From an uncultured Dehalococcoidia bacterium (lineage in GTDB: Bacteria; Chloroflexota; Dehalococcoidia; Lucifugimonadales; G958296245): a stretch of 64,000 bases of DNA. Shown here piece after piece: positions 19,531 to 53,914 of this stretch. The stretch's first letter is position 1, and the number at the start of each line of letters is the position of its first letter. Under the pieces are notes generated by a model, which saw nothing but the letters and a program-made list of their open reading frames with translations, did no database searches and was not told where the DNA came from. The DNA lies in assembly GCA_958296245.1 (NCBI GenBank), contig OY282458.1, positions 1,974,197-2,038,196 on the forward strand. The letters run 5' to 3'. The translations under genes were made by a program, and so were the position numbers.

Positions 19531-21511
19531 GCCGTATCTCCCCCTCCCAGGGGTGGTTGTAGACGCCTTCCACGGGCACGAACTGGCCGGTCATGATGCG
19601 GGTAATATCATACTCAGGGAGGTCAACTTCCACCAGGCATATCTCGCCGGCCTTCACGCCGCGCCCGTAGAAATTGAAGTCCAGGTTGTCGAAGCCGTGC
19701 TGCCGGCGGTGGTCGGGCAGGTCATTCACGTCGGCGGGAATCAGGTGGAGGAAGAACAACGCCTCCGTGTCGGCGCGGGCGCACGGCTCCTTGACGTAGG
19801 CCAGGGTGTTTTCGCTGAGATATACGCCCCAGTCGGAGCGAATTACCGGCTCGCCGAATACAACCGCATCGTAGGCGGATGCGAACGTCTCGTACGCCGG
19901 TTCGACGAACTCTTTGGCGTTGGCAATCAGAGAGACGTCGAGATGTCTGCGAGCTCTGTGAGCCATGACGTGCTCGACTGAAATTCGCTCTCCCAGCAGC
20001 CTCCAACTCTCCTCCTGTATTGATTTGTTGCCGTGGACCAGGAAGATTCTATTTGGGACACTGGGACGCGAGACGGCTAACCTCAACATTTCCTGGGCAC
20101 ACTCTTCGAAGGCGCTCCAGCATTGTGCCTTTCCATAGTGGTAGTTGTTCGGTTTTTCATCCTGATGGAACTTCATAGAAGGGGCTGCCAACATGTTTGC
20201 GTAAACCATGTCTCCTTCTTCCACATTATCTTCCAGAAAGGCGAGAACGGCTTTGGTGTTGTCGCCTTTCTCATACCGGCCTTTCACATACGGACTGTCC
20301 TGCCGCATATCGTCCACTCCGGCAAGCGCTATTGCGCCGACCGCCGCGGCGGCCAGCCCCGGAGCCAGCCACGCACGGCGCGTGAGCGAGGCAAGACTAT
20401 CAGCCATCCAATGGATGGAGACGCCGGCCGCCAGAAAGATGATCGGCCCCAGATAGAGGTTTGGGCGAATCCCGCCCAGAGGATAAAGGGCCGGCAGGGC
20501 GGCGAAAATGGCGATGCCAACGGCAAGCAGGGCCAGGGTTGCAATGGCATCGAATCGCCGCCTCTTCAGAGATGCCGTCAGCATAAGAGCCAATGCCCCA
20601 ACCACCAGTATGGCGACGGCTTCCGGCAGATGATATTTCAGGAGATTCCAAGTGCGGGAAACCGCGAATCCAAGAACGTCGACTGCATCATATGCCCCTC
20701 GATAATTGTACCAGTCGCCCCACCAGCCCTCTTCCTGCCACTGATAGCGCACAGTGACCGCATAGCTTATGGCGCACCCAGCCAGAAAGCACGCCGCCGG
20801 CCAGAGCAAGACGATGCGCCGCTCGAGCCAATTGCGAATTCGGCCTAAGTATGTATTCCTTTCCGCCGCCAAGGTCGAGGAGGCGGGTAGAACCACAGCA
20901 GCGCCCATTACGGCAACGCCGAACAGCGCCAAACCGTACTGGAGCAACGGCGCGAGGAACAGCGCAACGCAGAGCAGGGCCTTACGGCCGTCCCGCAGAT
21001 ACCACAGCAGCCCCGCTATCATCAGCACGGCCAGCAGCGTGCCGGTGGAGTATTCCCGCGCATCCTGGGCATGCTCTATGGCGGCAACCGAAAGCGTCGC
21101 CAGCAGCGCAGCCAGAAACGCGGCCCACCGGGCAACCCCGAGGCGCGGCAGCAACAATAACATCACCGCCACAGTCAAGACGCTGGCCGCCGCCGGCAGA
21201 ACGCGGATGCTGAAGGGGGAGACATCCACTTTCTGGACCGCCCACAGCGCCAGGGGGTACAGGACCGGCGAGGAGTTGCGGGAGCGGGTATTGGGGATCA
21301 CGTCCGAGAGGGAGCCGCTCGAATTACTGGAGGCAACGGCTTCGTCATACGATACGGATCCCTCCGGCAGGTTATAGAAGCGCAGCGCCGCCGCGACTAC
21401 GAGCAGGCACACGAACGCCGCAAGGACCAGCCGTTCCGGAGAAACGCGCGCCGTCAGGACGCGCCACAGATTCAGCGCGAAGCCCTGCAAGCCGTTCCCG
21501 TTACTCCCCAA
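19520..21511 (-). CDS. GT-C (GT39/ArnT-like) membrane glycosyltransferase with C-terminal KEPC module
   Basis: A 663-aa protein with a leader (GSNGNGLQGFALNLWR), a first membrane helix ([19 protein letters not shown]), then an external loop with the acidic pair SYDEAVASSN, about 10-12 further helices, an external region and the KEPC module ([21 protein letters not shown] to the end). The acidic loop is typical of lipid-linked sugar transferases. The TTG at 21511 is spaced about 8 nt from a GGGAGGGGGAG encoded by the last codons of the upstream gene, and the stop of that gene overlaps the start by 11 nt. Confidence 0.82.
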   Translation of the reverse strand: MGSNGNGLQGFALNLWRVLTARVSPERLVLAAFVCLLVVAAALRFYNLPEGSVSYDEAVASSNSSGSLSDVIPNTRSRNSSPVLYPLALWAVQKVDVSPFSIRVLPAAASVLTVAVMLLLLPRLGVARWAAFLAALLATLSVAAIEHAQDAREYSTGTLLAVLMIAGLLWYLRDGRKALLCVALFLAPLLQYGLALFGVAVMGAAVVLPASSTLAAERNTYLGRIRNWLERRIVLLWPAACFLAGCAISYAVTVRYQWQEEGWWGDWYNYRGAYDAVDVLGFAVSRTWNLLKYHLPEAVAILVVGALALMLTASLKRRRFDAIATLALLAVGIAIFAALPALYPLGGIRPNLYLGPIIFLAAGVSIHWMADSLASLTRRAWLAPGLAAAAVGAIALAGVDDMRQDSPYVKGRYEKGDNTKAVLAFLEDNVEEGDMVYANMLAAPSMKFHQDEKPNNYHYGKAQCWSAFEECAQEMLRLAVSRPSVPNRIFLVHGNKSIQEESWRLLGERISVEHVMAHRARRHLDVSLIANAKEFVEPAYETFASAYDAVVFGEPVIRSDWGVYLSENTLAYVKEPCARADTEALFFLHLIPADVNDLPDHRRQHGFDNLDFNFYGRGVKAGEICLVEVDLPEYDITRIMTGQFVPVEGVYNHPWEGEIRLGE

Positions 21512-23501
21512 GCCGTATCTCCCCCTCCCAGAGGTGGTCGTAGCCGCCTTCAACTGGCACGTACTGGCCGGTGCTGATGCGGGCAATATCATACTCAGGG
21601 AGATCCACCGCCGCTATGCATTTACCGTCGAATATCAAGCCGCGCCGGTCGAAGCGGAAGTCCAGGTTGTCGAAGCCGTGCCGCTTGCGCTGGTCGGGGA
21701 GGTCGTTCACGTCAACAGGGTACAGGGCCAGCAAGAACCACGCCTCCGTGTCGGCGCGGGCGCACGGCTCCTTGACGTAGGCCAGCGTGTTTTCGCTGTG
21801 ATATACGTCAAAATCGGAGCGGATTACGGGTTCGCCGGATACCAGCGCCTCGTAAGTGGAACGGGCCGCCAGTTCGCTGGACTCTTTGATGTTCCCAATC
21901 AGAGCGATACTGTATTCTCCGTCGTCAGCAATGACGCGCTCAACTGAAACTTGCTCGCCCAGCAGCTCCAATTCCTCCTGTATTGATTTGCCGTGGACCA
22001 GGAAGATTCTATCTGGAACATTGGGTAACAAGGCGACTAAATCGACCATCTGACGAAGACACGGGCGGAGACCCGGTTCGGCGGAGGGCCCACACCAGAG
22101 GGTCCCGTGGTAGTAATTGCCCGGGCTTTCCTCTTCTCCTTGATAGAACTTTATAGAAGGGGCTGCGTACATGGTTGCGTAAACCATGTCCTCTTCCCGC
22201 ACTCGTTCTTCCAGTACGGCAAAAATGGATTTGATGTTTTGACGTGTCTGGTACGGACTGTCCTGCCTCATCGCGCCCACTCCAGCAAAGGCTATTGCGC
22301 CGACCGCCGCAGCGGCCAGCGCCGGCGCCAGCCACGCCCGGCGCGTGAGCGAGGCAAGACTATCAGTCATCCAATGGATGGAGACGCCGGCCGCCAGAAA
22401 GATGACCGGCCCCAGATAGAGGTTTTGGCGAATCCTTCCCAGAGGGTAAACTGTTAACAGGGCGGCGAAAATGGCGATTCCAACGGCAAGCAGGGCCAGG
22501 GTTGCAATGGCATCGAGTCGCCGCCTCTTCAGGGATGCCAACAGCATCAGGGCCAATGCGCCAACCGCCAATACGGCAACGGCTTCCGGCAAATGAAGCG
22601 TCAATAACCTCCGAATCCCATCAATCGAAAACTCGAAGATCGCGGGCGCATCGAATCCTCCCTGATAGTAATACGCCGATAGATAGCCCCAGCCCCCTTC
22701 CTGCCACTGATAGCGCAAAGTAACCGCGTAGCTTATGGCGCACCCAGCCAGAAAGCACGCCGCGGGCCAGAGCAAGACGATGCGCCGCTCGAGCCAATTG
22801 CGAAACCGGCCTATGTATGTATTCCGTTCCGGCGCCGCCAAGGTCGAGGAGGCGGGTAGAACCACAGCAGCGCCCATTACGGCAACGCCGAACAGCGCCA
22901 AACCGTACTGGATCAACGGCGCGAGGAACAGCGCAACGCAGAGCAGGGCTTTCCTGCCGTCCCGCAGATACCACAGCAGCCCCGCTATCATCAGCACGAC
23001 CAGCAGCGCGTCGATGGAGTATTCCCGCGCATCCTGGGCATGCTCTATGGCGGCAACGGAAAGAGTCGCCAGCAGAGCCGCCAGAAACGCGGCCCACCGA
23101 GCAACCCCGAGGCGCGGCAGCAAAAATAACATCACGGCAACGGTCAGAACGCTGGCCGCCGCCGGCAGAACGCGGATGCTGAAGACAGAGACATCCACCT
23201 TCTGGACCGCCCACAGCGCCAGGGGGTACAGGATCGGCGAGGAGTTGCGGGAGCGGGTATTGGAGACCACCTCCGAGAGGGAGCCGCTCGCATTACTGGA
23301 GGCAACGGCTTCGTCATACCGTACGGAAGTCCCCGGCAGGTTATAGAAGCGCAGACCCGCCGCGACTACGAGCAGGCACACGAACGCCGCAAGGACCAGC
23401 CGTTCCCGAGAACGGGGGGAAGGAAATACCCCCCCCCTCGTACTTATGTTCTGATAGCGCACGGTCAGGGCGCGGCGGTTACTACTCTGCGGCGGCGTCA
23501 T
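21501..23501 (-). CDS. GT-C (GT39/ArnT-like) membrane glycosyltransferase with C-terminal KEPC module
   Basis: A 666-aa paralogue of the two genes downstream of it (RYDEAVASSNASGS loop). It differs most in the external region between the last helices and the module, where donor or acceptor specificity may lie. The ATG at 23501 overlaps the stop of the upstream gene by 20 nt, giving a chimeric leader ([18 protein letters not shown]). A run of nine G at 23429-23437 lies in the leader and is in frame with the rest of the protein. The module ends WEGEIRLGE. Confidence 0.82.
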   Translation of the reverse strand: MTPPQSSNRRALTVRYQNISTRGGVFPSPRSRERLVLAAFVCLLVVAAGLRFYNLPGTSVRYDEAVASSNASGSLSEVVSNTRSRNSSPILYPLALWAVQKVDVSVFSIRVLPAAASVLTVAVMLFLLPRLGVARWAAFLAALLATLSVAAIEHAQDAREYSIDALLVVLMIAGLLWYLRDGRKALLCVALFLAPLIQYGLALFGVAVMGAAVVLPASSTLAAPERNTYIGRFRNWLERRIVLLWPAACFLAGCAISYAVTLRYQWQEGGWGYLSAYYYQGGFDAPAIFEFSIDGIRRLLTLHLPEAVAVLAVGALALMLLASLKRRRLDAIATLALLAVGIAIFAALLTVYPLGRIRQNLYLGPVIFLAAGVSIHWMTDSLASLTRRAWLAPALAAAAVGAIAFAGVGAMRQDSPYQTRQNIKSIFAVLEERVREEDMVYATMYAAPSIKFYQGEEESPGNYYHGTLWCGPSAEPGLRPCLRQMVDLVALLPNVPDRIFLVHGKSIQEELELLGEQVSVERVIADDGEYSIALIGNIKESSELAARSTYEALVSGEPVIRSDFDVYHSENTLAYVKEPCARADTEAWFLLALYPVDVNDLPDQRKRHGFDNLDFRFDRRGLIFDGKCIAAVDLPEYDIARISTGQYVPVEGGYDHLWEGEIRLGE
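23429..23437 (-). repeat. Poly-G tract (9) inside the leader of a glycosyltransferase gene
   Basis: Nine G on the coding strand, codons AGG GGG GGG GTA, within the leader peptide ISTRGGVF. The frame is intact at this length; gain or loss of one base would disconnect the leader start from the protein. Confidence 0.8.
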
Positions 23502-26782: not shown

Positions 26783-26794
26783 CCTTAGTTACGC

Positions 26795-27442
26795 CTGCTT
26801 TATCGGGGCTGCGCCAGTCAAGAAAGACCTCAGGAGAAACTGTTCAGACTCTGTGAGGACTCGAAGAGGGAATCCAGGAGATCCTCCCTTCTGGGCTGGG
26901 GGTCTGGGGGCTGTGCCCCCAGTTACCAATGGGCGGGCGGGTGGGATCAAAGACGTCTGCTTTATCGGGGCTGCGCCAGTCAAGAAAGACCTCAGGAGAA
27001 ACTGTTCAGACTCTGTGAGGCTCGAAGAAGGAAGTCCAAGATTCTCCCGTCGGGGCTGGGGGTCTGGGGGCTGTGCCCCCAGTTTACCAAGGGGCGGGCG
27101 GGTGGGTATCAAAGACGTCTGCTTTATCGGGGCTGCGCCAGTCAAGAAAGACCTCAGGAGAAACTGTTCAGACTCTGTGAGGCTCGAAGAAGGAAGTCCA
27201 AGATTCTCCCGTCGGGGCTGGGGGTCTGGGGGCTGTGCCCCCAGTTTACCAAGGGGCGGGCGGATGGGTATCAAAGACGTCTGCTTTATCGGGGCTGCGC
27301 CAGTCAAGAAAGACCTCAGGAGAAACTGTTCAGACTCTGTGAGGACTCGAAGAAGGAAGTCCAAGATTCTCCCGTCGGGGCTGGGGGTCTGGGGGCTGTG
27401 CCCCCAGTTTACCAAGGGGCGGACGGGTGGGATCAAGAACAA
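26795..27442. repeat. Four tandem 162-bp direct repeats with hairpins
   Basis: Units starting CTGCTTTATCGGGGCTGCGC occur at 26795, 26957, 27119 and 27281, exactly 162 bp apart. Units 2 and 3 are nearly identical; unit 1 is the most diverged. Each has the conserved stretch AACTGTTCAGACTCTGTGAG and a perfect hairpin CTGGGGGC-TGT-GCCCCCAG followed by TTT. Because 162 is a multiple of 3, long open frames exist on both strands, but they carry no recognisable protein. The array fills most of the 825-bp gap between divergent genes 25127-26782 and 27608-28303. Confidence 0.9.
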
Positions 27443-30287: not shown

Positions 30288-31886
30288 ATGACCTATTTCA
30301 TACAAGAGATTGCGGGGATAGAGCAACCCGAGGCATCGCCTGTTCCTGCCCGCCGCAGGCGGATTATGATAATCGACCCGCCTTTCAAGCGCCTCTACCA
30401 TGACAATGCCTCACTGGTGAAATTCCCCCTGGCGCTTGGCTATCTCTCGGGGGCGGTCTTGAAGTGGACGGATTGGAAGGTCCAGGCCTACAACGCCGAC
30501 TTCAACCCGAAAAAGAGGGCTATCTCACTCGACAACGTAACCCGCATCAGGGAAGGGATGGAGCGTTACCTGCGGACGCTGGAGGACCCGGCAGCGCCCA
30601 TCTGGGAAGAGGTGCGGTCGGCCATAACGGAGTTCGGCCCGGACGTCGTTGGCATAAGCTCCAAGACCCAGAACTTCCCGTCCGCGATGAAGGTTGCGCG
30701 AATCGCCAAGGAGCATGACCCCGATACGCTGGTCGTCCTGGGCGGCCCCCACGCCAGCTTGTCCACAGAGAGGGCGCTGGACTGCCCTGATATCGACGTG
30801 GCCGCGCTGGGTGAAGGGGAGATGACGCTGGTCGGTCTGCTCGAGGCCAGGCAAAGCGGCGCGCCGCTGAGCGAGGCGCCGGGGATCGCGTACCGTCGGC
30901 GCGGGCGAGTGGCGCTCACACCACCGCGCGCTCAGATCTCCGACTTGGACGCGCTGCCCTTCCCCTCGGAATATGCGCCGCAAGTCCTTCGGGACTACGA
31001 GAGCTACCCGCCCGAAGCCTTCGGATACGTCTTCTCGGCTCGCGGCTGCCCTTACAGCTGCACCTTCTGCGAGTCCAAAGCCATCTGGACGCAGAAGACC
31101 CGCTGGCGCTCGCCTGAAAACGTGGTGAGAGAGATCAAGATGCTGATGGAGCGGGGCGTCCGGTACGTCTACTTCGACGATGACACGTTCGGCATACACC
31201 CGCGTTATATCGAGGAGCTATGCGGCTTGATGGAAACCGAGTGCCCCGGGCTCAAGTGGGGCTGCGAGATAACGGTCGGCGTGGTCAAGGAACAGTCGGT
31301 CGAATACATGCGACGCTCCGGCTGCGTGCGGGTCAATATCGGTATCGAGTCCGGAAACAACCGGATACTGCGCAGCGTGAAGAAGGGGCACACCATCGAG
31401 AAGGCGTATCCGGCGGTTGACCTCTGCCGGCAGGCGGGCATCGAAGTCGGCGCCTTCTTCATGATTGGCTTCCCGGAGGAGACTGAGGAGACGCTGCGAG
31501 ACACTCTGACGGCCATCGAGAAGATCAACGCCGATAACATCATGCTGAGCATCTTCACTCCCTATCCGGGATCCGAGCTGTTCCAGGTGTGCAAGGACCT
31601 TGGGGTGGTGGACGACGACTTCGACATTACGATCTACAACCACCAGAGCCCGGAGAACTGCTTCACCGCCTTCATTCCGCCGGAGCGCTTCAAAGAGCTG
31701 GTGCGGGAGTCGATGGCCGTTGTAACGCGCAAGAACCGCCGCGGCCGGTGGCGCCGAGTGGTCATGATGCTGCTCCATCGCGACTTCTATCGAACGATGC
31801 ACATGGCGCGGCGGTTCCTCCTCACCCGCGCGTCGTGGTATTCCGCGCGCGTCATCAGACGCCGCCGTTCAGAGCCGGTAGCCTGA
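30288..31886 (+). CDS. B12-binding domain radical SAM protein
   Basis: A 532-aa protein. The N-terminal region (about 25-210) is a cobalamin-binding Rossmann domain (IMIIDPP, PDVVGISSKT, LVVLGGPHAS, DIDVAALGEGE). The radical SAM core has the 4Fe-4S motif CPYSCTFC (C254, C258, C261), followed by YVYFDDDTF and VNIGIESGNN. Such enzymes methylate or rearrange unactivated carbons, often in lipid or glycan biosynthesis. It lies 30 nt after the methyltransferase gene and is co-directional with the glycan genes. Confidence 0.88.
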   Translation: MTYFIQEIAGIEQPEASPVPARRRRIMIIDPPFKRLYHDNASLVKFPLALGYLSGAVLKWTDWKVQAYNADFNPKKRAISLDNVTRIREGMERYLRTLEDPAAPIWEEVRSAITEFGPDVVGISSKTQNFPSAMKVARIAKEHDPDTLVVLGGPHASLSTERALDCPDIDVAALGEGEMTLVGLLEARQSGAPLSEAPGIAYRRRGRVALTPPRAQISDLDALPFPSEYAPQVLRDYESYPPEAFGYVFSARGCPYSCTFCESKAIWTQKTRWRSPENVVREIKMLMERGVRYVYFDDDTFGIHPRYIEELCGLMETECPGLKWGCEITVGVVKEQSVEYMRRSGCVRVNIGIESGNNRILRSVKKGHTIEKAYPAVDLCRQAGIEVGAFFMIGFPEETEETLRDTLTAIEKINADNIMLSIFTPYPGSELFQVCKDLGVVDDDFDITIYNHQSPENCFTAFIPPERFKELVRESMAVVTRKNRRGRWRRVVMMLLHRDFYRTMHMARRFLLTRASWYSARVIRRRRSEPVA

Positions 31887-32013: not shown

Positions 32014-32928
32014 ATGGGCATTCTGCGTCTCCTGACCCGCTATGCACCCCCGCCGGCCAAGAAAGCGTACCGACGACTTTTCGGCGAAGAGCAGTGGTTC
32101 CTTGCCGTGAACGCAGGCCTGCCTCTGACCGATTCCGCAATGAGCGGAGGGGCGCGCTCGCCGCAGCTGAAAGCGCATCATGCCCCGCCCGGCCGCTTCT
32201 GGGCCGACCCATTTCCCATAGTCGTTGACGGCAAGGTCTGGGTGTTCTTCGAGGATTACTCCTTCGCGTCAAAGAAAGCCGTCATCGCGTGCGCTCCGGT
32301 GTCCGCCGACGGCGGCCTGGGTGAAGTCGCCGCCGCGTTGGAATGCCCCTACCATCTCTCCTACCCGTTTGTCTTCGAGCATCGAGGCCGACTCTACCTG
32401 ATTCCCGACACCTGGGACGAGAATCGGGTTGACCTGTGGCGCTGCCGCCGGTTCCCCGACGATTGGACGAGAGAACGGACGCTGTTGGACGGCGTGAGCA
32501 TGAGCGACCCGACGCTGCACCGGCAGGACGGTAAGCTGTGGCTGTTCGGCACGGTGAGCGAGGCGAGGGCGCGGGCCAATGACGAGCTGCACGTCTATAT
32601 GGCCGATGCTCCGGAGGGCGCGTGGCGGCCCCACCCGGCCAATCCGGTGGTGTCCGACCGCCGCCGGGCCCGGCCGGCGGGCCGGCTGTTTTTCCGGGAG
32701 GGCCGCCTGATTCGCCCGGGGCAGGATTGCAGCGGACGCTACGGGGGCGCGGTCGTCCTCAATCGGGTGGATGAACTGAACGAACGCGCCTATGCCGAAA
32801 CCCCCATCGGGCGCATTGACAGCTCCGGGCTGCCCGGCAACCGGGGCACGCACACGGTCAATTACGCCGGCGGCCTCGAATTCCTGGACGGGCGTGTCCT
32901 GCGCAGACGAACAGGGTCGGCGGATTGA
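32014..32928 (+). CDS. GINT1 N-terminal-like five-bladed propeller protein of a glycan cluster
   Basis: A 304-aa protein. GRFWADPFPIVVDGKVWVFFEDY, PYHLSYPFVFEHRGRLYLIPD, SMSDPTLHRQDGKLWLF and DCSGRYGGAVVLNRV are repeated blade motifs of a GH43/GINT1-N-like propeller seen in bacterial surface polysaccharide loci. Its role (sugar hydrolysis, transfer or binding) is not established. The ATG lies 127 nt after the radical SAM gene with a weak ribosome site. Confidence 0.72.
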   Translation: MGILRLLTRYAPPPAKKAYRRLFGEEQWFLAVNAGLPLTDSAMSGGARSPQLKAHHAPPGRFWADPFPIVVDGKVWVFFEDYSFASKKAVIACAPVSADGGLGEVAAALECPYHLSYPFVFEHRGRLYLIPDTWDENRVDLWRCRRFPDDWTRERTLLDGVSMSDPTLHRQDGKLWLFGTVSEARARANDELHVYMADAPEGAWRPHPANPVVSDRRRARPAGRLFFREGRLIRPGQDCSGRYGGAVVLNRVDELNERAYAETPIGRIDSSGLPGNRGTHTVNYAGGLEFLDGRVLRRRTGSAD

Positions 32929-33004
32929 CGCCAATGCAAGAGGGCCGTTTCACCCTAATAATGGCTGCGCCGGCAGGGGTAGGTATTTCACTTAGAGCTT
33001 GCGT

Positions 33005-34093
33005 ATGTCGGGTCCTCCCCGCGCGATGAGGGTTCTGCTGATCGGACCGCTGCCCAGCAAGTCGGCGTCGCTTGGAGAACCCATCGGCGGGGCCAGGGTG
33101 ACTTTTGCGGAAGCGGTCCGGGAGTTGGACCTGCGAGGCTTCGACCTTGACGTCGTCAACACGGCCAGGCCGAGGCCCAATCTGCCCCTTTGGAAAATTC
33201 TGGCTTACGAGCTGCTCACCTTCGCGCGGGTGGTCTGGACGGTCCTGCGGCGGGCCCGGCGCTGCGACCTGGTATTCCTGCACATGTCGGCCTATTCGGC
33301 GCTGACGGCGGCCTTCGCCATCTGGGCCCTGTGCCAGGCTCTGCGCCGCCCCCTGGCCTTGCGGTTCTTCGGGGACAGCCTCTATTTCACCTACCATCGC
33401 TATGGGCCGGCCCGCCGCTGGCTGATGGACAAGACCTTTCTGCGGGCCCCGCTGGTGTATGAGGAAAGATGGACGCCACGGGAGTTCAGCAGCCGGGGCA
33501 ACTTCCGCTGGCTGGCCAACACCAGGGACATCATCCCCGCGGAAACCGGGCAGAGCCGGGATGGTGTCCGCAGACTGGTATTCATGGGCCAACTCAGGAA
33601 GGAAAAGGGGCTGGCCGAGGCGCTGGAGGCGTGCCGTTCCCTGCCCGAGGACTGCCATCTCCGAGTGTTCGGGCCCCGGATGCCCAACACCGACTTTTCC
33701 CTGTTCGACAGCCACCCCAGGGCGACCTACGGCGGGGCGCTGGAGCCGGAGGAGGCGCAGCGCGTCCTAGCCGAACACGACCTGCTGCTGTTCCTAAGCT
33801 ACATGAGAAGCGAGGGCACTCCGGGAGTCATTATAGAGGCCTTCCAGTGCGGCGTGCCGGTTGTGGCAACCTCGATAGGCGGAGTCCCCGAGCAGGTGGA
33901 ACACGAAAGGAGCGGGCTGCTGGTGGAGCCTCGCTCCGTCCCGGAGTTGAAGGCGGCGATCGAGCGGCTGATTGACGACCCGGCCCTGTACCGGCGGCTT
34001 TGCGCCGGGGCCAGGCAGCGCGGCGAGTTCTTCCGAGGCGGGCGCCATTTCGACCGGTTGGCCGAGGAGCTGCGGGGCTTGGCCCGCAAGTAA
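33005..34093 (+). CDS. GT4-family glycosyltransferase (GT-B fold)
   Basis: A 362-aa protein. The start MRVLLIGPLPSKSASLGEPIGGARVTF is the N-terminal Rossmann domain with a glycine-rich acceptor loop. The C-terminal domain has RRLVFMGQLRKEKGL, GALEPEEAQRVLAEHDLLLFLSYMRSEGTPGVIIEAFQCGVPVVAT, which contains the E-x7-E motif typical of GT4. It should add a sugar from a nucleotide donor on the cytoplasmic side. ATG 33005 is chosen over the in-frame TTG 32999. It is followed after 6 nt by the flippase gene. Confidence 0.88.
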   Translation: MSGPPRAMRVLLIGPLPSKSASLGEPIGGARVTFAEAVRELDLRGFDLDVVNTARPRPNLPLWKILAYELLTFARVVWTVLRRARRCDLVFLHMSAYSALTAAFAIWALCQALRRPLALRFFGDSLYFTYHRYGPARRWLMDKTFLRAPLVYEERWTPREFSSRGNFRWLANTRDIIPAETGQSRDGVRRLVFMGQLRKEKGLAEALEACRSLPEDCHLRVFGPRMPNTDFSLFDSHPRATYGGALEPEEAQRVLAEHDLLLFLSYMRSEGTPGVIIEAFQCGVPVVATSIGGVPEQVEHERSGLLVEPRSVPELKAAIERLIDDPALYRRLCAGARQRGEFFRGGRHFDRLAEELRGLARK

Positions 34094-34099
34094 GCAAAG

Positions 34100-35419
34100 A
34101 TGCTTACCCAGTTGCTCTCGGCCTCGGACCGGCTCGCAGCGCGGCAGACCCTCTGGATGGGCGCCATTACGGCGGTCCAGCTCTTGGGCGGACTGGCCCA
34201 GGTAGCCATCTCCGCCCGGATACTTGGACCGGAGGGTTTCGGCGTCTTGGCCGTCATCATCGCCGTAGCCGCGCTCATCCACGGTCTCTTGGCCGCGCCT
34301 GGGGGTGAAGCCGTCATAACCTTCGTAACGCGGGCCGTGGCGGAGGAAAGGCCGCAAGAGGCAGCCCGCATACTGCGTTTCACCATTGCCGCGTCCCTGG
34401 GGCTGTCGCTCATCGCCTACGCCTTTATTGCGGTCATCGTACTCATGGCAAGCAGCCTGCTGGGGATCGACGACGCCCACCGGGGCATAGCGCTGACGTA
34501 CGGCGTCGTGGGCATCTTCCTGGCTACGCGGACCGAAAGCCTGGCGGTCCTGCGGTTGTCCGACCGGGTATCCCTGGGTTTGGCAATCATTCTGGCGGGC
34601 GTTCTGACCCGGGTCGCCCTGCTCGGAATAGTATGGCTGCAGGGGGGCGGGCTGTTCGAGGTGGTCTTGGCGCATATTGCCGGCGTCGCGGTGGGCGGGG
34701 CCGGGATGCTCGTTGCCGCGGCAGTATCGGCGCCTCGGGCGGGGATAGCCTGCTTCCTACGCTCGCTATCGCTCAGAGTCCCGCCTGGCGTGGCGCGCTT
34801 CCAGGCCGGAGTATTCGGAAGGTCCACCGTCTCGGCATTGGCCTATCATATGGACACTCTCCTGGTGGCGCAATTTACCGGCGCGGCGGACGTGGGACTG
34901 TACCGTGCGGCGAGGCAGATCACCGAAACCGGACACTATCCGTTCCAGCCGCTAAAGGATGGCGTGCAGCTCCAATACAGCAAGCAATGGTACTCGGGCC
35001 GGGGCGGGGCGCTGCGCCGCACCTCGCTGCTGTTCAGCCTGGTGTCCTTCGCGTCGGCGGCAGCGCTATTCGGGCTGCTTGCCGTCTTCCATCGATTCAT
35101 AACGCGGCTCATCCTGGGAGCCGAGTTCTCGGACGCCGCCCCGCTGCTGCTGATTATGATTTTGGGCGCATTCGCCGTCAACAGCATTTCCGCGCTTACT
35201 ACGCTGCCTGCGGCCGTTGGGCGCGTCTTGCCGCTGTTGGCAGCGGAGATAGGCGGCTTGGCGGTCTTCGTCGTGCTCATCGTATGGCTGGTCCCGATGG
35301 GCGGCGCGGAAGGCGCGGCCTGGGCCAATACTGCATACTACAGCGTCATTGCCTTGATCATGGTACCCTTTATAATCTCAACCTTGCGGCAGAGCCGACA
35401 TTTACAGTGGAAACAGTAG
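34100..35419 (+). CDS. Lipid-linked oligosaccharide flippase (Wzx / polysaccharide biosynthesis family)
   Basis: A 439-aa membrane protein with about 12-14 helices and the family's early signature ITAVQLLGGLAQVAISARILGPEGFGVLAVI. The middle AYHMDTLLVAQFTGAADVGLYRAARQITE matches the MOP-superfamily half-repeat. It probably flips undecaprenyl-linked glycans across the inner membrane, supplying substrate for polymerases or ligases. It is tightly linked to the GT4 gene. Its 3' end (CTTGCGGCAGAGCCG through the stop) is repeated before the gene at 36629. Confidence 0.88.
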   Translation: MLTQLLSASDRLAARQTLWMGAITAVQLLGGLAQVAISARILGPEGFGVLAVIIAVAALIHGLLAAPGGEAVITFVTRAVAEERPQEAARILRFTIAASLGLSLIAYAFIAVIVLMASSLLGIDDAHRGIALTYGVVGIFLATRTESLAVLRLSDRVSLGLAIILAGVLTRVALLGIVWLQGGGLFEVVLAHIAGVAVGGAGMLVAAAVSAPRAGIACFLRSLSLRVPPGVARFQAGVFGRSTVSALAYHMDTLLVAQFTGAADVGLYRAARQITETGHYPFQPLKDGVQLQYSKQWYSGRGGALRRTSLLFSLVSFASAAALFGLLAVFHRFITRLILGAEFSDAAPLLLIMILGAFAVNSISALTTLPAAVGRVLPLLAAEIGGLAVFVVLIVWLVPMGGAEGAAWANTAYYSVIALIMVPFIISTLRQSRHLQWKQ

Positions 35420-35426
35420 AGAGCGC

Positions 35427-36558
35427 ATGTGCAGTCCCAAGTCCCAAGTCCCAAGTCCCAAGTCCCAAGTCCCAAGTCCCAAGTCCCAAGTCCCAAGTCC
35501 CAAGTCCCAAGTCCCAAGTCCCAAGTCCCAAGTCCCAAGTCCCAAGTCCCAAGTCCCAAGTCCCAAGTCCCAAGTCCCCCCACCCCGCAACCGGGCTCGA
35601 CGCCAAAGTTCCTGTGATTGGTTACCTCTGTCTGTGTCTGAGCGTATTTTTCTTCAGCTTTCTCCTCGTTGCCGCCCCGGAGACATTGCGTGTGCTGACC
35701 CGGGAAGACTCCTGGGTGGAGAACCTCACTGCGGTATGGTTTCTCCTGGCGGGCTTCCTGCTGTTCGGCACGGCCTGGATGGAGCGCAGCGTCTCCCGTC
35801 GCTGCGCCTATATTCTCGGCGGTATCGCGATGGTGTTCGCGTTTGGCGAAGAGATCAGTTGGGGGCAGCGTATCTTCGGGTTTGCGACGCCCGACTTCTT
35901 GATGTCCTTGAATGAGCAGAAGGAATTCAACGTCCACGGTATCAGGAGTGTAGTGTTCAGCATTATCTACTTGAATAGCGCAATGGTCCTGTGCGTGGCA
36001 ACCGGCGCAGCCTTCTTTTGCCGAAAAGACAGGCTTTTCGGGATTCCGTTGCCGTCAATTATGCTGATGCTGGTCTTTCTGATAATGCTTTCCTATGAGT
36101 CCGGAGTGTGGGTCAGAGATGCAACAGGAATGGGCTTCGGAGAATACCTGGTGCGCACCAGACTATTCTACGGATTTACCGTGGCTGAGGTGAAGGTGCT
36201 GCTGCTGCTCTTTTGCATCTTCGCCCTGATTTCACGGCAAGTCAAACTGGTAGTCGCTTTCGTTGCAACCCTGGCCCTCGTTCTTGCCTTCTCTTATGTG
36301 AACTATGATAATGTGTACCGCCTTAATATCATCGAACGTGGAAGTTTGTTTGAGGTGCGGGAGTACCTGTTCGGCATCGGCTGCCTTTTCTATTCTTTGG
36401 AGCTCATGCTGGCCCAGAGACGGCTGGCGGCAATTTTACCGGCCTCGTTCAGTGGCCTGAAACTGCCAGGCGGAGGGGTCCCGTTCTGGCTGATGGCCTG
36501 CTCTCTGGTAATTGCAGGCAGTATCGCGTTGATATTTTTTGAGTATTTCAGCGGTTAG
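35427..36558 (+). CDS. Candidate phase-variable membrane protein, currently out of frame with its ATG
   Basis: The paralogue at 36629 shows the layout: ATG, a short Pro-rich stretch, then the membrane domain beginning VPVIGYLCLCLSVFFFSFLL. Here the equivalent ATG (35427, GAGAGCGC upstream) is followed by 20 copies of a 7-bp repeat and runs into the wrong frame, ending at 35915 after 162 codons. The membrane domain (from about 35600, with motif FGEEISWGQRIFGFATPDFL and a late VREYLFGIGCLFYSLELMLAQ) is open to the stop at 36558. Loss of one repeat unit, or gain of two, would join them. A GTG at 35407 is already in frame with the membrane domain and could give low expression. Function is unknown; context suggests surface glycan export or lipid modification. 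Confidence 0.7.
35433..35578 (+). repeat. Heptanucleotide microsatellite (AGTCCCA)n, 20 full copies
   Basis: Perfect head-to-tail 7-bp units run from 35433 to 35572 with a partial 21st. None of the six frames meets a stop inside the tract, so it reads as PKSQVPS repeats in plus frames. Seven is not divisible by 3, so each unit gained or lost changes the downstream frame. Confidence 0.95.
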
Positions 36559-36628: not shown

Positions 36629-37558
36629 ATGTCCACCTCCCAGCCCCCAGTCCCCCCACCCCGCAACCGGCTCGACACCAAAGTTCCTGTGATTGGTTAC
36701 CTCTGTCTGTGTCTGAGCGTATTTTTCTTCAGCTTTCTCCTCGTTGCCGCCCCGGAGACATTGCGTGTGCTGACCCGGGAAGACTCCTGGGTGGAGAGCC
36801 TCACTGCGGTGTGGTTTCTCCTGGCGGGCTTCCTGCTGTTCGTCACGGCCTGGATGGAGCGCAGCGTCTCCCGGCGCTGCGTCTATATTCTCGGCGGTAC
36901 GGCGATGGTGTTCGTGTTTGGCGAAGAAATCAGTTGGGGGCAGCGCATCTTCGGGTTTGCGACGCCCGACTTCTTGATGTCCTTGAATGAGCAGGAAGAA
37001 ATCACTGTCCACAATACCGCCAATGGACTGTTTGACATTATATACTTGAACGGTCTGCTGGCCCTGTGTATGGCAACCAGCGCGGCTTTCTTTTGCCGGA
37101 AAGGCAGGCTTTTCGGGATTCCGTTGCCGTCGATTCTGCTGATGCTAGGCTTTCTGATAATACTTTCTTATGAATCAGGAACGGGCCTCAGAAATGCATT
37201 CGAAGGGAACTTCAGAGACTACTTGGCGGGTGTCAGACTATCCTTCGGATTTATTGTGGTTGAGGAGAAGGTGCTGCTTCTGCTCTTTCTCATCTTCACC
37301 TTGTTTTCAGGGCAAGTCAAATTGGTCATTGCTTCCGCTGCAACCCTGGCGCTCGTTTCGGCTCTCTTGTTCGTGAACTACTATAGTAGCATCGATCGTG
37401 GAAGTTTGTTTGAGGTGCGGGAGTACCTGTTCGGCATAGGCTGCCTCTTCTATTCTTTGGAGCTCATGCTGGCTCAGGAACGGTTAGCGGCAATATCACG
37501 AGCAAAATTCAGCGGCCTGAAACTGCCGGGCGGATGGGTTCCATCCTGGCTGCGGTGA
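36629..37558 (+). CDS. Polytopic membrane protein, tandem paralogue of the 35427 gene
   Basis: A 309-aa protein with about 8 membrane segments. It shares long identical stretches with the upstream copy (LRVLTREDSWVE, WMERSVSRRC, FGEEISWGQRIFGFATPDF). After the ATG it has a short non-repetitive MSTSQPPVPPPRNRLDTK in place of the heptamer array, so it shows the intact, permanently in-frame form. GAGGAG lies just before the ATG. The family is unrecognised. It is the last gene of the plus-strand polysaccharide operon and converges with the deacetylase gene. Confidence 0.75.
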   Translation: MSTSQPPVPPPRNRLDTKVPVIGYLCLCLSVFFFSFLLVAAPETLRVLTREDSWVESLTAVWFLLAGFLLFVTAWMERSVSRRCVYILGGTAMVFVFGEEISWGQRIFGFATPDFLMSLNEQEEITVHNTANGLFDIIYLNGLLALCMATSAAFFCRKGRLFGIPLPSILLMLGFLIILSYESGTGLRNAFEGNFRDYLAGVRLSFGFIVVEEKVLLLLFLIFTLFSGQVKLVIASAATLALVSALLFVNYYSSIDRGSLFEVREYLFGIGCLFYSLELMLAQERLAAISRAKFSGLKLPGGWVPSWLR

Positions 37559-37607: not shown

Positions 37608-38804
37608 CTAAGGGCGCGGGCGAAGCGTGTAGGGACGCTCGTTTGGCTTCAGCGAAATCATGGCGGCCTCCGTGTCGAAGACAAGCTCATCCAGCAATTC
37701 GCCGTCCTGGGAAACGGTGAATGGTCTGCCAACCCAATCCTTTGGCTGGTCGAACAGGATGGTCAACGGTTGGTTGAACCTGACGTTTTCCAGACCGTCG
37801 GACAGCGTAATCGTGATGCTTTCGGTTCCGGGGCTGCCCTCGACCGGTTCAACCTTAATCTCGGCATTCTCCCTTTCCCGGACATAGAGGGTTATGTCGT
37901 TCATAGAAGCCGTCCAGAAATCACGCGCCGCGATTGATTGAACGTCTTTGCGGAATTCGTCCCAAGCGTACCATCCCCAATGCCTCTGTCCGATGCTATG
38001 GTAGGTCAATATAACCCACGCGGTCCGCACCAATGCCTCATCCAGGATAGGCGTCAACTCGTCATTGTCGTTGATACAGGCGCGGCAATCCTGAAACTCG
38101 ATGCTTTGCATCTCCAACGCTTGCAAGCCGAACCAATTGTCGGGCGCCAGCCGGGACCCTGGGATATTGTAGAACCTCTTCGGGTCTAGGGTCTGTAGTC
38201 TGCCGCTCAAAAATCCGGAAGCCTCCAAAGCCCGTTGCGTCTCTTCTTCGTGTCCGGCGCTTCTCGGATAGGCGTAGGCGACGGGCTTCATTCCCCAATC
38301 TTCCATGGTGTCGTAGTTGGCCTGGAAAGATTGGAAGGCCTCTTCGTAAGACAACTCGTCGTGGTCTACGTGATCGTGGCCATGCCCAAAATAGCTGAAC
38401 CCATTGGGGACCAGCTCCGACATCAGATAGGCGATCCGCTCATCGTCAGGCCCGCTGAATATGCGATCACCGTTAAAGGAATTTCTGGTCACTATTTCAT
38501 AGCCCATTACGAGGCCCTGCTCCATCACGTAGCTATCTATGTCCGGTTCCCTTCCGCGGATGGGCCAGTCATCGTTGGTAATCGAGATTGCGGCGGTGTG
38601 GTTGTCAAACCACTTTGCGACTGAAGCGTTCAGGGGGCCCGGGGTAGGAGTTGGGACGTCCGGCGCCTGGGACCGGCATCCCGCCGCCAGTACCAAAACG
38701 CCGAGCAGCAGCAACGCCCCCGCCATCATTGCAACGCAAGACGGCAAGGCGCGCCACAGATTGTTCAGTGCGAAGCCTTGCAGGCCGTTCTCCTTACTGT
38801 TCAA
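37608..38804 (-). CDS. Polysaccharide deacetylase-like (NodB-type) lipoprotein
   Basis: A 398-aa protein read from the TTG at 38804. The shared leader (NSKENGLQGFALNNLWR) runs into a lipoprotein signal (AGALLLLGVLVLAAGC). The catalytic region resembles carbohydrate esterase 4: AAISITNDDWP (Asp-Asp motif), GHGHDHVDHDELSYEE (His metal site) and AYAYPRSAG. A later TYHSIGQRHWGW fits the C-terminal active-site His. It probably deacetylates an amino sugar in the surface glycan. ATG 38729 is an alternative start, but then no positive charge precedes the hydrophobic segment. It lacks the KEPC module although it has the leader, and its start overlaps the upstream stop by 11 nt. Confidence 0.75.
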   Translation of the reverse strand: MNSKENGLQGFALNNLWRALPSCVAMMAGALLLLGVLVLAAGCRSQAPDVPTPTPGPLNASVAKWFDNHTAAISITNDDWPIRGREPDIDSYVMEQGLVMGYEIVTRNSFNGDRIFSGPDDERIAYLMSELVPNGFSYFGHGHDHVDHDELSYEEAFQSFQANYDTMEDWGMKPVAYAYPRSAGHEEETQRALEASGFLSGRLQTLDPKRFYNIPGSRLAPDNWFGLQALEMQSIEFQDCRACINDNDELTPILDEALVRTAWVILTYHSIGQRHWGWYAWDEFRKDVQSIAARDFWTASMNDITLYVRERENAEIKVEPVEGSPGTESITITLSDGLENVRFNQPLTILFDQPKDWVGRPFTVSQDGELLDELVFDTEAAMISLKPNERPYTLRPRP

Positions 38805-41115
38805 GGCGGATCTCCCCCTCCCAGAGGCGGTTGTAGCCGCCGGCCGCGGGGACGTACTGGCCTGTCCTGATTTCGGAGACATTATATTCCGGGAGAGGAA
38901 TTTTCACCATACATTTGCCGTCGAGTATCTCGCCGCGCCAGTCAAATCTAAAGTCCAGGTTGTCGAAGCCGTATTGCCGGCGATGGTCGGGCAGGTCGTT
39001 CACGTCAACCGGGTATAGGTGAAGGAAGAATACCGCCTCCGTGTCGGCGCGGGCGCACGGCTCCTTGACGTAGATGAGGTGGTTTCCGATGAGATGCACG
39101 TCAAAGCTGGAGCGGATTGACGGCGGGCGGTCTCCGACCAGCCTTGCCAGATAATCGCTCGCTGCTATAGCTTCAACCCTGACTGGCGGGAGTGCATCGT
39201 GGGGCAGCACAACGGCGTCCACGCACAGCCCCGTCTCCGTTTGCGCCCAGGCGTTGGCGGCCAGTCCATCCGCTGCGCCAACCCAAGACCACGCTATCCA
39301 CTCGTTCGGCGCGCAATTCCTGACGAACGCCTGCGCCAGCCGGCCGTCCACGATCAGCCCGATGCCATCCGACTGATGGTCGAAGTGGGGTTCAATCCTC
39401 TCCCAAGTCCTGGCGACGGTATTTTCATCTGCCGGCAGATCGATGGGCCGTAGTTGGAGTCTTAGTGGTGAACCTTCAAAGCTCCTAGGGTCGGCAAAAT
39501 GAGTTATCCCGAATTCTCGATGGAGAGCATCATATCCGTCTCTAGCCAGCTTTCTCGCGTGGAGATAGTCATAGGAGTTGACTAGGCCATCCAAGTTCAC
39601 CACTGGAAAGCGCGAGAAGTACCCGATGCCGCCGGCTTCATACGACCCGACCACGCTGTCCTCGGGAAGCACGCGGTTCATAAGCTGCGTACCCCCATAA
39701 ACAGCTTCAGTCCATTCGGTCCATGAGTCGTCAGTTCTGGTTGAGACACTAATCGCTTCAACACGCTGAAATGGCTCGGTGAAATCGGCCTTGATAAACA
39801 GGAAGGCCGCGCCCGCAAGGACGATGCCCAAACTCAGGATGTTGGTCGCGTGCTGCGACTTCGGCCCGATGAACCGGCGAATGAAGTAAATGGCGACGTA
39901 ACATCGTACGGGAACAATCAGCGCCGTCATCAGGTACGCCGGGACAAAATACCAAGACCAAGGACCCAAGGAAGGGTGAATCGTGAGAACAGTCTGTGCG
40001 AATTTGGCCAGATGGCCGGCCGCCAAACCGAACATGCCCACCAGGAAGGCCAGCAGAAGCCAATCTTTCCGACTCCGGGAGCGGCGGGCGAACCACCAGA
40101 CCAGCAGCAAATAGGCGCAAACCTCCAGCGCAACCAGCAGCCCATCGTTTAAGACAGGAATCTGCAATATGTCCTGGAAGTTCTGCGCCAAGCTGTATCC
40201 ACCTTCCTGCTCCCACCTGAGCTGCGACCAGAAATTCTTGGTCGCGCCGCTCACCGGCGCGATGCCGCCGAACACGAGCCAGTTGTAGGCGAAATACACC
40301 AGGATGCCTGCGCCGGCGGCGAGAAACGGGACGACCGCCTTCACGGAGCGCGCGGAACGAGCCCACTCTCCGAGTGACGCGCTGGGCGCTCGTTCCTGCC
40401 GCGACCATTCCATAAGCAGCAACGCCGCCGTGGCGGCCAGCGATATGGCGATGTATTCCAGGCGCACCCAAGGCAGGGCGAAGGTGACCGCGGCCAACGG
40501 CCACTGCCACCGCGCCGGGCTTCGGGCAAAGAGGCAAGCGGTCAGAATGAACAGGCCCAACATGAACAGCGCCGCCGCCGCTTCCATTCCTTGAATCAAG
40601 GACCGGTTCTGGTAGAACATCGGCAGCGCGGCGAACATCAGATACCACGGCTGGCGCGCCAGCCGGGCGGCCGCGGCGACGAGGGCTACGCCGCCGGCGA
40701 TGAGCATGATCTCGAACGCCTTGATGCCGAACAGCGCGGCTTCCTTGTCGAATACCCAGTAGAACGGCGTAATCAGCAGCAGCCAGAGGGGGTGATATCC
40801 GTTGGTGCGCGTGATGCCGCCGTCGAAGGTCGAGAACTTCCCCTCAGTCAGGTTGCTGGCGATCTGGAAGTAGTAGAAGGCGTCATCGTGCATGTGGGAG
40901 ATAAGGTTGATGAGGTCGAAGCGGGCGAGCATGTACCAGGCGAACCCGGCGCCGTATGCCAGGACGCCAGCGACGAATAGGGCGAACAGCCCGTGGCGCA
41001 GCCTGGAGGAAGGAATTACCCCCCCCCCTCCAGTACTCATGTTCTGATAACGCGCCGCCAAGGCGCTCCACAGATTCAGCGCGAAGCCTCGCACGGCGTT
41101 CCCGTTACTGCTCAA
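38794..41115 (-). CDS. GT-C membrane glycosyltransferase (LFALFV type) with KEPC module, leader in frame
   Basis: A 773-aa protein and the reference member of four related genes (also 51616, 56127, 58479). It has a leader SSNGNAVRGFALNLWS, a G10 tract coding Gly, a first helix [22 protein letters not shown], an external loop HDDAFYYFQIASNL with [17 protein letters not shown], many helices, an external segment ([33 protein letters not shown]) and a C-terminal KEPC module. The DD pair in the first loop is the likely catalytic or metal site of GT-C enzymes. The TTG at 41115 overlaps the upstream stop by 11 nt. An ATG inside the leader (MSTGGGG) is a second possible start, just before the G tract. 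Confidence 0.82.
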   Translation of the reverse strand: MSSNGNAVRGFALNLWSALAARYQNMSTGGGGVIPSSRLRHGLFALFVAGVLAYGAGFAWYMLARFDLINLISHMHDDAFYYFQIASNLTEGKFSTFDGGITRTNGYHPLWLLLITPFYWVFDKEAALFGIKAFEIMLIAGGVALVAAAARLARQPWYLMFAALPMFYQNRSLIQGMEAAAALFMLGLFILTACLFARSPARWQWPLAAVTFALPWVRLEYIAISLAATAALLLMEWSRQERAPSASLGEWARSARSVKAVVPFLAAGAGILVYFAYNWLVFGGIAPVSGATKNFWSQLRWEQEGGYSLAQNFQDILQIPVLNDGLLVALEVCAYLLLVWWFARRSRSRKDWLLLAFLVGMFGLAAGHLAKFAQTVLTIHPSLGPWSWYFVPAYLMTALIVPVRCYVAIYFIRRFIGPKSQHATNILSLGIVLAGAAFLFIKADFTEPFQRVEAISVSTRTDDSWTEWTEAVYGGTQLMNRVLPEDSVVGSYEAGGIGYFSRFPVVNLDGLVNSYDYLHARKLARDGYDALHREFGITHFADPRSFEGSPLRLQLRPIDLPADENTVARTWERIEPHFDHQSDGIGLIVDGRLAQAFVRNCAPNEWIAWSWVGAADGLAANAWAQTETGLCVDAVVLPHDALPPVRVEAIAASDYLARLVGDRPPSIRSSFDVHLIGNHLIYVKEPCARADTEAVFFLHLYPVDVNDLPDHRRQYGFDNLDFRFDWRGEILDGKCMVKIPLPEYNVSEIRTGQYVPAAGGYNRLWEGEIRLEQ
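41019..41028 (-). repeat. Poly-G tract (10) in glycosyltransferase leader, in frame
   Basis: Ten G on the coding strand: ACT GGA then GGG GGG GGG GTA. At this length the leader start and the membrane protein share a frame. Confidence 0.85.
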
Positions 41116-49465: not shown

Positions 49466-51626
49466 GGCGTATCTCCTCCTCCCAGAAGTGGCGGAAACCG
49501 CCTTCCACTGGCACGTACTGGCCGGTGCTGATGCGGGCAATAGCATACTCAGGGAGATCCACCGCCGCCATGCATTTGCCGTCAAGTATCACGCCGCGCT
49601 CGTAGAAATTGAAGTCCAGGTTGTCGAAGCCGTGCTGCCGGCGGTGGTCGGGCAGGTCGTTCACGTCAACCGGGTACAGGGCCAGGAAGAACCACGCCTC
49701 CGTGTCGGCGCGGGCGCACGGCTCCTTGACGTAGGTCAGCGTGTTTTCGCTGAGATATACGTCGAAGGTGGAGCGGATCGCCGGCTCGCTGTCTCTGATC
49801 AGTCTTGCCATATAATCGCCCACCGGCTCCGTTCCACCGGCTATCCGCAAGTCGTGTCCGGCGAAGCTCGCCACGACCCAGTCATGGTCGTCGGAGTCGA
49901 AGGGCATCCACAGATCGGGTCCGACCTTCACGGCGTACTGACCTCGGTCGAGGGCTTCAGCTTCGCTGGAGGCCGCAGGATGCGCTGTAAAGTTGACGCC
50001 GCGCTCCATCAGGTATCCGGGCGGCGGCTGGCGATCGTGGGCGATTGCGCGCTGGTGGTTGGGTGTTGTGACAGGATTGCGCGCCACCGTCGCATCGGTC
50101 AAGCCGAAGATGTCGATGACTTTCAGGTCAGGAAGGTAATAGAACCGTATGCCGAGCTTTGCGCCTGCCATCAGCGCGTCATCAGGAATCACTCCCCGCT
50201 CCATATTCTCGTAGGGCTGCCATCGGCGTAGCTGGCGGTTGGCGAACTCGCGGTGTTCCGCGAATCGTGAAGCGACATCCTGCTCAATAGACTGACGGCG
50301 CAGGTCGTTGGAGATAGCGGCCAGCGCCGACATCCCCGGCGCGGCCAGCAGCCAGCGGGCGTTGCGCTCGTCGAGCTCTATGTGAAGTCTCCAGATTCGT
50401 TTGTCAATCCTGGCGCCCTCGATCAACAGTTCTCCCTGTATGGCGCCGCAGTAGAAGATGACGGGGATGAACAGGATGAGCGCGCAAGCCCTCGCTCCCG
50501 GCAGCCGGAGTCGGTGGGAGTGGGGTATGCGCCGCCAGTCGAAGGCGGCGATCCGCGAGCCGATGCAGACGGTCCCCACAGCGGCCGGCAGCGCCAGCAG
50601 CGGCCAGTAGAAGTCCAGCGGGCGATATTCAAAGTGGTCGCCGCCAATCCGCATCACGTATGCCATGTGGACAGCGATTAGCAGCAGGACCAGAGCATAG
50701 ATCCCGTCGCGGCTCTCCCGCCACCGATGCCGCAGAGCAACCCACGCCAGGGGAATCAGCAGGTACAGCCCCGTCTCCAGCGCCGCCGACCACAGGTAGC
50801 GAAAGCCCGACTCGTACCACGGGCGAACGTGCTTGGCGTAGTAGGTGTTGGGCAGCCACTCGCCGTAGTAGGCGAAGCGGAACAGGAAGTGGGCCGCCAC
50901 TACGATGACGAAGGGCGCCGCCAGGTACGCCAATTCGCGCCAGTCCACCCGCAGCCCCTTGGCGTCGGCCATCCGCTGCGCCGCGAACCAGCCGAAGCAG
51001 CACACCGCAATCAGCGGCCCTTCCGGTCGGGTCAGGGCAGCCCCGATCAGGCTCGCTGACGCCGCCAGCAGGCCCGCTCGCCCATCTCGGTATAGGCTCA
51101 GGCAGACGACGGCCACTACGATGAAGAAGGTGAACTGCCGCGTTTCCAGCCCGCCGCCCGAGGTCCACACCGCGAAGGTCGCGCTGCTGCACACCAACCC
51201 CAAGGCCATCCAGCCGACCAGTCCCCGGTTTCGCAGCGAGGGCAGGCGCGCTATCCACCACAGCATCGCGCCGACGGTCCCGGCGGTGAAGGCCACCGAC
51301 AGCCACGGCGCCGCGTCCTCCGGGGCCGCGCCCAGCGCCCGCCAGATGGCGGCCAGCTCCAGCACCCACAGGAAGTTGGAGTAGCCCTCCACCCGCTCGC
51401 CGGGGTTGAAGACCAGGCCGTGGCCCTCCAGCAGGTTGCGGACGTAGCGGAAGCTGATGAAGGCGTCGTCGGTCAGGAACCACGACACCGAGGCCAGCCA
51501 GGCCAACAGCGCCAGCCAGGGCAGGCAGGCCAGTATGAGACTGAGGGATGTGCCCTTTAGCGGCCCTGTCAGGGCGCGCCGCATATTCAGCGCGAAGCCC
51601 CGCAGGCCGTTACCGTTACTGTTCAA
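49455..51626 (-). CDS. GT-C membrane glycosyltransferase (AftB/ZomB-like loop) with KEPC module
   Basis: A 723-aa protein. After leader [19 protein letters not shown] comes a helix and the signature [21 protein letters not shown] followed by [14 protein letters not shown], known from mycobacterial arabinofuranosyltransferase AftB-like proteins and their bacterial relatives. Further helices, an external region ([28 protein letters not shown]) and the KEPC module follow. It is closely similar to the 53991 gene. The TTG at 51626 overlaps the upstream stop by 11 nt. The leader has no poly-G tract. The module ends EEEIRLEQ. Confidence 0.82.
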
Positions 51627-53903: not shown

Positions 53904-53914
53904 CCCCCCCCCCC
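53904..53914 (-). repeat. Poly-G tract (11) in glycosyltransferase leader, out of frame
   Basis: Eleven G between ACA and TAATTCC on the coding strand. Ten G would connect leader and protein as in the 38794 gene. Confidence 0.85.

Follow-up and report, generated by a model that had tools for sequence, protein, structure and literature searches.

Most known contingency loci based on simple repeats come from host-adapted pathogens and commensals, and a literature search found no description of them in Dehalococcoidia, Chloroflexota or sponge-type symbionts. The window analysed here, a stretch of 64,000 nucleotides, lies on a chromosome related most closely, among named organisms, to Dehalococcoidia (Chloroflexota); it contains a long heptanucleotide array at the start of a gene for a membrane protein. 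The question that this locus raises is whether the array works as a genetic switch through changes in its length and, if so, what such a switch would act upon.

The heptamer array

The array, (AGTCCCA)20, occupies positions 35433-35572 of the forward strand (+); in a tandem-repeat scan the maximal period-7 run extends over 35433-35578 (20.86 copies, 100% matches). An earlier reading of the DNA by itself (the sequence-only reading) had described a 20-copy heptanucleotide repeat right after the ATG of a membrane-protein gene, free of stop codons in every frame. Both descriptions are accurate: the pure array begins 6 nt 3' of ATG35427, and none of its three frames, all of which were read, contains a stop. 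The three frames encode one and the same cyclic peptide, Ser-Pro-Lys-Ser-Gln-Val-Pro. Besides being pure and placed in the 5' part of a coding sequence, the array has a unit length, 7, that is not divisible by three. The source chromosome is a single contig of 2,685,284 bp, and no second AGTCCCA array was found across these 2.69 Mb, degenerate pattern included. Poly-C/G runs of 10 or more are not generally frequent in this genome either (10 places in 2.69 Mb). Chance alone falls far short of explaining 20 perfect copies. The array is free of substitutions, though the gene that it heads (copy 1) differs from its closest relative by a dS of 0.14 (dN 0.066) and from the neighbouring paralogue (copy 2) by a dS of 0.26, which suggests that the array is under continuing turnover.

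The same unit also occurs as (AGTCCCA)8 in another genome of the same class (G367), where it is intergenic; the unit is therefore not specific to switching, nor a hallmark of it. This shorter array (L153, G367 contig 55) lies upstream of an ORF that resembles, by eye, a DegT-type aminotransferase. A repeat of a different kind is found at 26791-27436 of the window, where a predicted ORF contains a 162-bp unit repeated four times in tandem (96% matches).

Reading frames and candidate start codons

At 20 units the frame of ATG35427 (35427-35429, +) passes through the array and terminates at 35915 after 162 aa. The coding part for the membrane domain of copy 1 (35579-36558, +) lies in a different frame; it is intact and open to 36558, reads PHPATGLDAK in the frame of the family, and stops short of the C-terminal domain of most relatives. 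That the ATG frame bypasses the membrane domain and ends at 35915, and that removing one unit or adding two restores it, had been stated in the sequence-only reading and is borne out: between 13 and 25 units, the range tested, ATG35427 joins the domain frame at 13, 16, 19, 22 and 25. Two further start codons are available. The first, GTG35407 (35407-35409, +), lies within the end of the flippase gene and joins the domain frame at 17, 20 and 23 units, hence at the present length; the second, GTG35429 (35429-35431, +), overlaps the ATG and is in frame at 18 and 21 units. The earlier description of the repeat as currently out of frame is therefore true for ATG35427, while its implication that the gene is off is not proven, as the two GTGs cover the other phases.

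We take ATG35427 to be the homologous, ancestral start of the family, since L056, L057, L059, L061, L063 and L071, six loci with the flippase end in common, carry an ATG at the corresponding position and GTG35407 is replaced by GCG in the paralogue. The Shine-Dalgarno duplex of copy 1 amounts to -3.3 kcal/mol, as against -7.9 kcal/mol for the paralogue and a random-site median of -3.1 kcal/mol. Because this ribosome-binding match is weak, translational coupling of copy 1 to the flippase is possible; the flippase stop (35417-35419) ends 7 nt before ATG35427.

The paralogue (36629-37558, +) had been claimed to be intact without a repeat, and indeed its ORF is open from ATG36629 to 37558, lacks a long tract and starts with an ATG that has a good Shine-Dalgarno match. 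A second frame difference between the copies consists of GGG at 35593-35595 (+) in copy 1 and GG in the paralogue: at 20 units the frame of ATG35427 follows the VPPPRNR of the paralogue and departs only at the extra G. The GGG is also found in L056 (the same place as L010) and L054 (the same place as L011), and the family sequence behind the tract typically reads ...GLDNK, so copy 2 is the departing copy. The paralogue was consequently rejected as a frame standard, lacking one G that is present in copy 1, L054 and L056. Both window copies end before a C-terminal domain of approximately 110 residues (FDVYL...) that is carried by most relatives; every second row of the 43-row family alignment (A2) was inspected.

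Our preferred reading, to which we assign a probability of roughly three in four, is that of a slipped-strand phase-variation (contingency) locus in which the array is the part that mutates. Heptamers would be gained or lost by replication slippage, and each step would shift the N-terminal frame relative to the intact multi-pass membrane domain, as a unit of 7 does not preserve the triplet frame. With 19 or 22 units the full protein would be made from ATG35427; at 20 units the product of this ATG would be a dead end of 162 residues, and full-length protein would arise only via the weak GTG35407. A strict on/off interpretation is weakened by the presence of some start codon for every phase. With GTG35407 in frame now and GTG35429 at 21 units, the switch may instead be graded, such that ATG35427, GTG35429 and GTG35407 each serve one phase, giving three expression levels and a longer or shorter Ser/Pro/Lys-rich N-terminus. 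Locus L070, with two overlapping ATGs in different frames before a C17 tract, points in the same direction. The GCG of the paralogue in place of GTG35407, and the ribosome-binding match of the latter, which at -2.8 kcal/mol is about the random-site median, argue the other way, and we consider a graded output a tentative possibility only.

Protein family and locus neighbourhood

The slipped-strand switch would act on a gene that lies directly behind a flippase gene (34100-35419, +; Pfam Polysacc_synt). Pfam assigns the genes further upstream to a GT4-type glycosyltransferase (32999-34093, +; Glycos_transf_1), a GINT1_N-like (glucosamine inositolphosphorylceramide transferase) protein (32014-32928, +) and a B12-binding radical SAM protein (30288-31886, +). 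Together, these neighbours (flippase, GT4, GINT1_N and radical SAM) suggest that a surface glycan may be altered. As copy 1 is directly behind, and translationally close to, a flippase for lipid-linked glycans, switching would probably alter a surface polysaccharide.

The membrane-protein family itself is previously undescribed. It has no match in Pfam (E 0.01) or NCBIfam, with one sub-threshold Pfam row at E 0.45. An AlphaFold2 model of the full-length homologue L057 predicts a helical membrane bundle (pLDDT 81.9), for which Foldseek returned nothing below E 0.06; a structural re-comparison gave only short helices, with Z-scores of at most 7.5, or rhodopsin-like bundles with an rmsd of about 5. 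We make no claim of function from the fold, as neither comparison yielded a convincing match for L057.

The C-terminal domain of about 110 residues is common to most relatives and to membrane-protein genes at 38794-60761 of the window. Large membrane proteins that share this domain (FDVYL...DNLDF...) are encoded in tandem at 38794-60761 (-) and at 4471-7692 (+), and ORF 4471-7692 apparently contains four copies of it in a row. Four ORFs of this large tandem family were scanned against Pfam, with no match.

Repeat tracts at the homologous position

The relatives of copy 1 carry mutable tracts of another type at the same place. C runs of 9-26 are found within 120 nt upstream of the first membrane segment in 14 of 40 family loci; with the heptamer of the window, 15 of the 40 have a mutable tract at the homologous position. 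These 40 comprise 31 close loci (L053-L083) and 9 of 14 loci of a first scan, of which L010, L011 and L013 were set aside as the same places as L056, L054 and L063, and L014 and L022 were omitted as distant. C/G runs are about 76-fold denser at this position (14 in 4,800 nt) than elsewhere in these loci (14 in 365,881 nt; p ~1e-19), a contrast that is understated, because at least 7 of the 14 runs elsewhere head further family members. From the composition of the tract-free members, 0.11 runs of C9 or longer would be expected in 50-nt windows. The tracts recur at the same place in four phyla, and tract presence changes 9 times on the protein tree. The clade of the window copy (support 100/99) comprises (AGTCCCA)20, C14 (L054), C16/C14 (L056) and C26 (L016). 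The heptamer occupies the position where the closest relatives of the window copy carry poly-C, and a replacement of the repeat type, from poly-C to heptamer, within one gene clade is possible.

Loci with a start codon that lies upstream of the tract and in the frame of the domain number 10 among the 15 with a tract and 24 among the 25 without one (Fisher p 0.02). If ATG only is counted, the contrast is gone (9 of 15 vs 19 of 25, p 0.31), and taken alone we regard it as a weak test.

Tract mutability and selection on the domain

Divergence of tract length is observed between near-identical paralogues in a relative. In the Caldilineaceae chromosome OY282381.1, loci L079b and L079c are identical at 100 of 100 positions upstream and 596 of 600 (99.3%) downstream of the tract; L079b has G12 with the leader in frame with the domain, L079c has G16 with the leader out of frame. 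Three further paralogues of this chromosome have G18, G4AG7 and an interrupted tract, respectively, and a local duplication in L056 has tracts of C16 and C14. Homopolymer lengths in relatives are taken from assemblies and may contain a sequencing error of one base; for the four-base difference between G12 and G16 an error is less likely. The sequence-only reading had proposed a contingency locus in a polysaccharide operon, a proposal now supported by the tracts in 15 of 40 loci, the length divergence of L079b and L079c, and the glycan neighbours.

Alternatively, the array might be a neutral microsatellite, that is, an accidental expansion in a decaying, dispensable duplicate. The poor Shine-Dalgarno match of copy 1 and the missing C-terminal domain of both copies are compatible with decay, an intact copy adjoins, and the heptamer in G367 is intergenic. 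Against this, the domain of copy 1 has no other lesion, and the gene downstream of the array is kept intact: it is open to 36558, with dN/dS values of 0.37 in the comparison with L016 (the homologue with C26), 0.49 with L010/L056 and 0.52 with both copy 2 and L011/L054 (from a table of 17 pairs chosen by hand). Pairs from the CATQHB genome have higher values (0.68-0.85), which favour neutrality there and indicate that constraint in that genome is slight. Out-of-frame copies of the family keep long open domains, and 15 of the 40 loci, spread over four phyla, have tracts at this very position. We judge a neutral origin improbable. It is very unlikely that the repeat merely sets the length of a flexible N-terminal tail, with the frame made irrelevant by translational slipping or re-initiation: all frames of the array do yield the cyclic Ser-Pro-Lys-Ser-Gln-Val-Pro, but beyond the array they diverge, two of three end early, and the homopolymers of the relatives would give no steady tail at all lengths. 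That the repeat number is an assembly or sequencing artefact is scarcely credible: it is known from one assembly, yet the chromosome is in one contig, the pure 140-nt array is shorter than a long read, and heptamer repeats are less error-prone in sequencing than homopolymers.

A second set of genes with a conserved leader

Tracts are also found in a second set of genes of the source genome. Thirteen genes, of which 8 lie in the window, start with a conserved leader, ALNLWRALTARYQNIST, that is succeeded by a G tract. Of 16 leader matches 14 were read, two with 3 mismatches being left out; one of the 14 (L146) is without tract and ORF. The leader is in frame with the protein in 8 of the 13 genes and out of frame in 5, namely in frame in 3 of 7 genes with uninterrupted G9-G11 and in 5 of 6 with shorter or interrupted tracts. 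Within the window, on the reverse strand (-), G10 (sense strand) at 41019-41028 stands between the common leader, which is in frame, and the first membrane segment of ORF 38794-41115; G11 at 53904-53914 (ORF 51616-53886) and G9 at 60779-60787 (ORF 58479-60761) have the leader out of frame, and G9 at 23429-23437 (ORF 21501-23501) has it in frame. Members of the first family, in Caldilineaceae and in L082, also begin with a leader of this type. Because this leader type is common to both gene sets, tract cassettes and protein modules appear to have been exchanged.

Further tracts were noted outside these sets. At G000:C1:360826-360842 (L029:1501-1517) a G17 tract is contained in an open frame that putatively encodes a DNA methyltransferase (Pfam N6_Mtase); the protein has weak PADLOC matches to type I/II methyltransferases and to PglX, and the gene is possibly a phase-variable restriction or BREX-like gene. 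At position 688 of L063 (OY282371.1) a G19 tract is located at the start of an open frame that is sulfotransferase-like by eye. At L023 (G000:C1:55260) a G13 tract just upstream of an ATG, possibly a spacing tract, precedes an ORF that resembles, by eye, a cob(I)alamin adenosyltransferase.

Taxonomic spread and transfer

A scan of one genome per species (84,980 species), in which distant relatives of the family are undercounted, gave at least 78 loci. The best 31 of these have 46-74% identity and all belong to one accession series (OY282xxx, CATQHxx); they are labelled Dehalococcoidia, Caldilineaceae, Gammaproteobacteria/Pseudomonadales, Nitrospirales, Spirochaetia, Binatia, Vicinamibacterales, Bryobacterales and Latescibacteria. 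Among the loci examined, the family spans at least seven phyla. Closer to the source genome it is found in 3 of 393 genomes of the class (E 1e-40) and in 6 of 59 nearest-relative genomes (E 0.001). We presume a sponge host for the OY282/CATQH community on the basis of its composition.

The protein tree consists of 39 rows, namely 30 of the 31 close loci (L081, which has stops, was excluded), both copies from the window, and 7 loci of the first scan. It requires 11 phylum changes, as compared to a minimum of 6 and to 15.3 with shuffled labels; on this tree the phyla are partly clustered and partly mixed. The loci L059 and L060, from Binatia and Acidobacteriota, are joined with a support of 100/97 and a dS of 0.17. 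At the level of DNA, window 33036-35426 is 88% identical to a Latescibacteria chromosome, and parts of the locus are 87-90% identical to a Gammaproteobacteria chromosome. We infer that loci of the family have moved between phyla. Searches for a mobile vehicle gave no match among phages and none confirmed in IMG/VR, and a Roseovarius plasmid gave one short match (27% of the query).

These observations are consistent with a modular phase-variable device that is shared horizontally by at least seven phyla within a single community, probably that of a sponge: exchangeable slippage cassettes at the N-terminus (poly-C, leader with poly-G, heptamer) would drive a membrane-protein family, often with the common C-terminal domain, in transferable glycan loci. 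We hold this wider proposal to be evenly balanced between true and false.

Comparison with known systems

Contingency genes of Neisseria and Campylobacter carry a poly-C or poly-G tract near the start of surface genes. The relatives in the window family, compared by description, are alike in carrying C9-C26 near the start, but they belong to other organisms and encode other proteins. A further parallel, with a heptanucleotide unit, is neuO of E. coli K1, the capsule O-acetyltransferase of phage CUS-3. As described in the cited account, (AAGACTC)n lies in the 5' coding part and the gene is on when the number of repeats is divisible by three; 64 genomes have 3-53 repeats, 20 being the commonest number and 65.6% being off, and in one culture 93% had 21 repeats, with 1.9% and 5.4% having 20 and 22, respectively (PMC13001214). 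On this account neuO resembles the window gene in having a 5' coding heptanucleotide, full-length translation that depends on frame, and a role in a surface polysaccharide, the last two being predicted from sequence for the window gene. It differs in that neuO encodes an acetyltransferase, whereas the window gene belongs to a multi-pass helical membrane family without a Pfam or NCBIfam match, is chromosomal with no phage relative found, and is adjoined by a repeat-free paralogue. Identity as a NeuO-type capsule O-acetyltransferase was rejected, given no Pfam family at E 0.01 and the predicted helical membrane bundle of L057. If switching holds, neuO would be the nearest counterpart in mechanism, not a homologue.

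In Haemophilus influenzae, heptanucleotide arrays are regarded as mediators of phase variation in the promoters of hmw1A and hmw2A and in genes for TonB-dependent receptors, and unit types differ between strains at homologous genes, according to the source cited (PMC2651432). The likeness to our family consists in heptanucleotide arrays and in differing unit types at homologous genes; the hmw repeats, as described there, are in the promoter, whereas the window repeat is inside the coding part. The G-rich heptamers GGGAATC and GGGGA(C/T)T of Xanthomonas and Nostoc are reported as dispersed and mainly intergenic, with 186 patterns in Xcc (PMC4692102). On the complementary strand the window unit reads TGGGACT and is similarly G-rich; a dispersed repeat of this type was rejected, the source genome having a single, intragenic array.

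Implications

We conclude that the locus is real and probably a functional contingency locus, with a known mechanism in a new protein family and in unexpected organisms. Phase variation would be testable in long reads that already exist, every read giving a separate count of the repeat units. If the modular device is true, the community would hold a common contingency repertoire in which the type of repeat is replaced over time and its position is kept. Phase variation of surface glycans would then be a trait common to an uncultured community.
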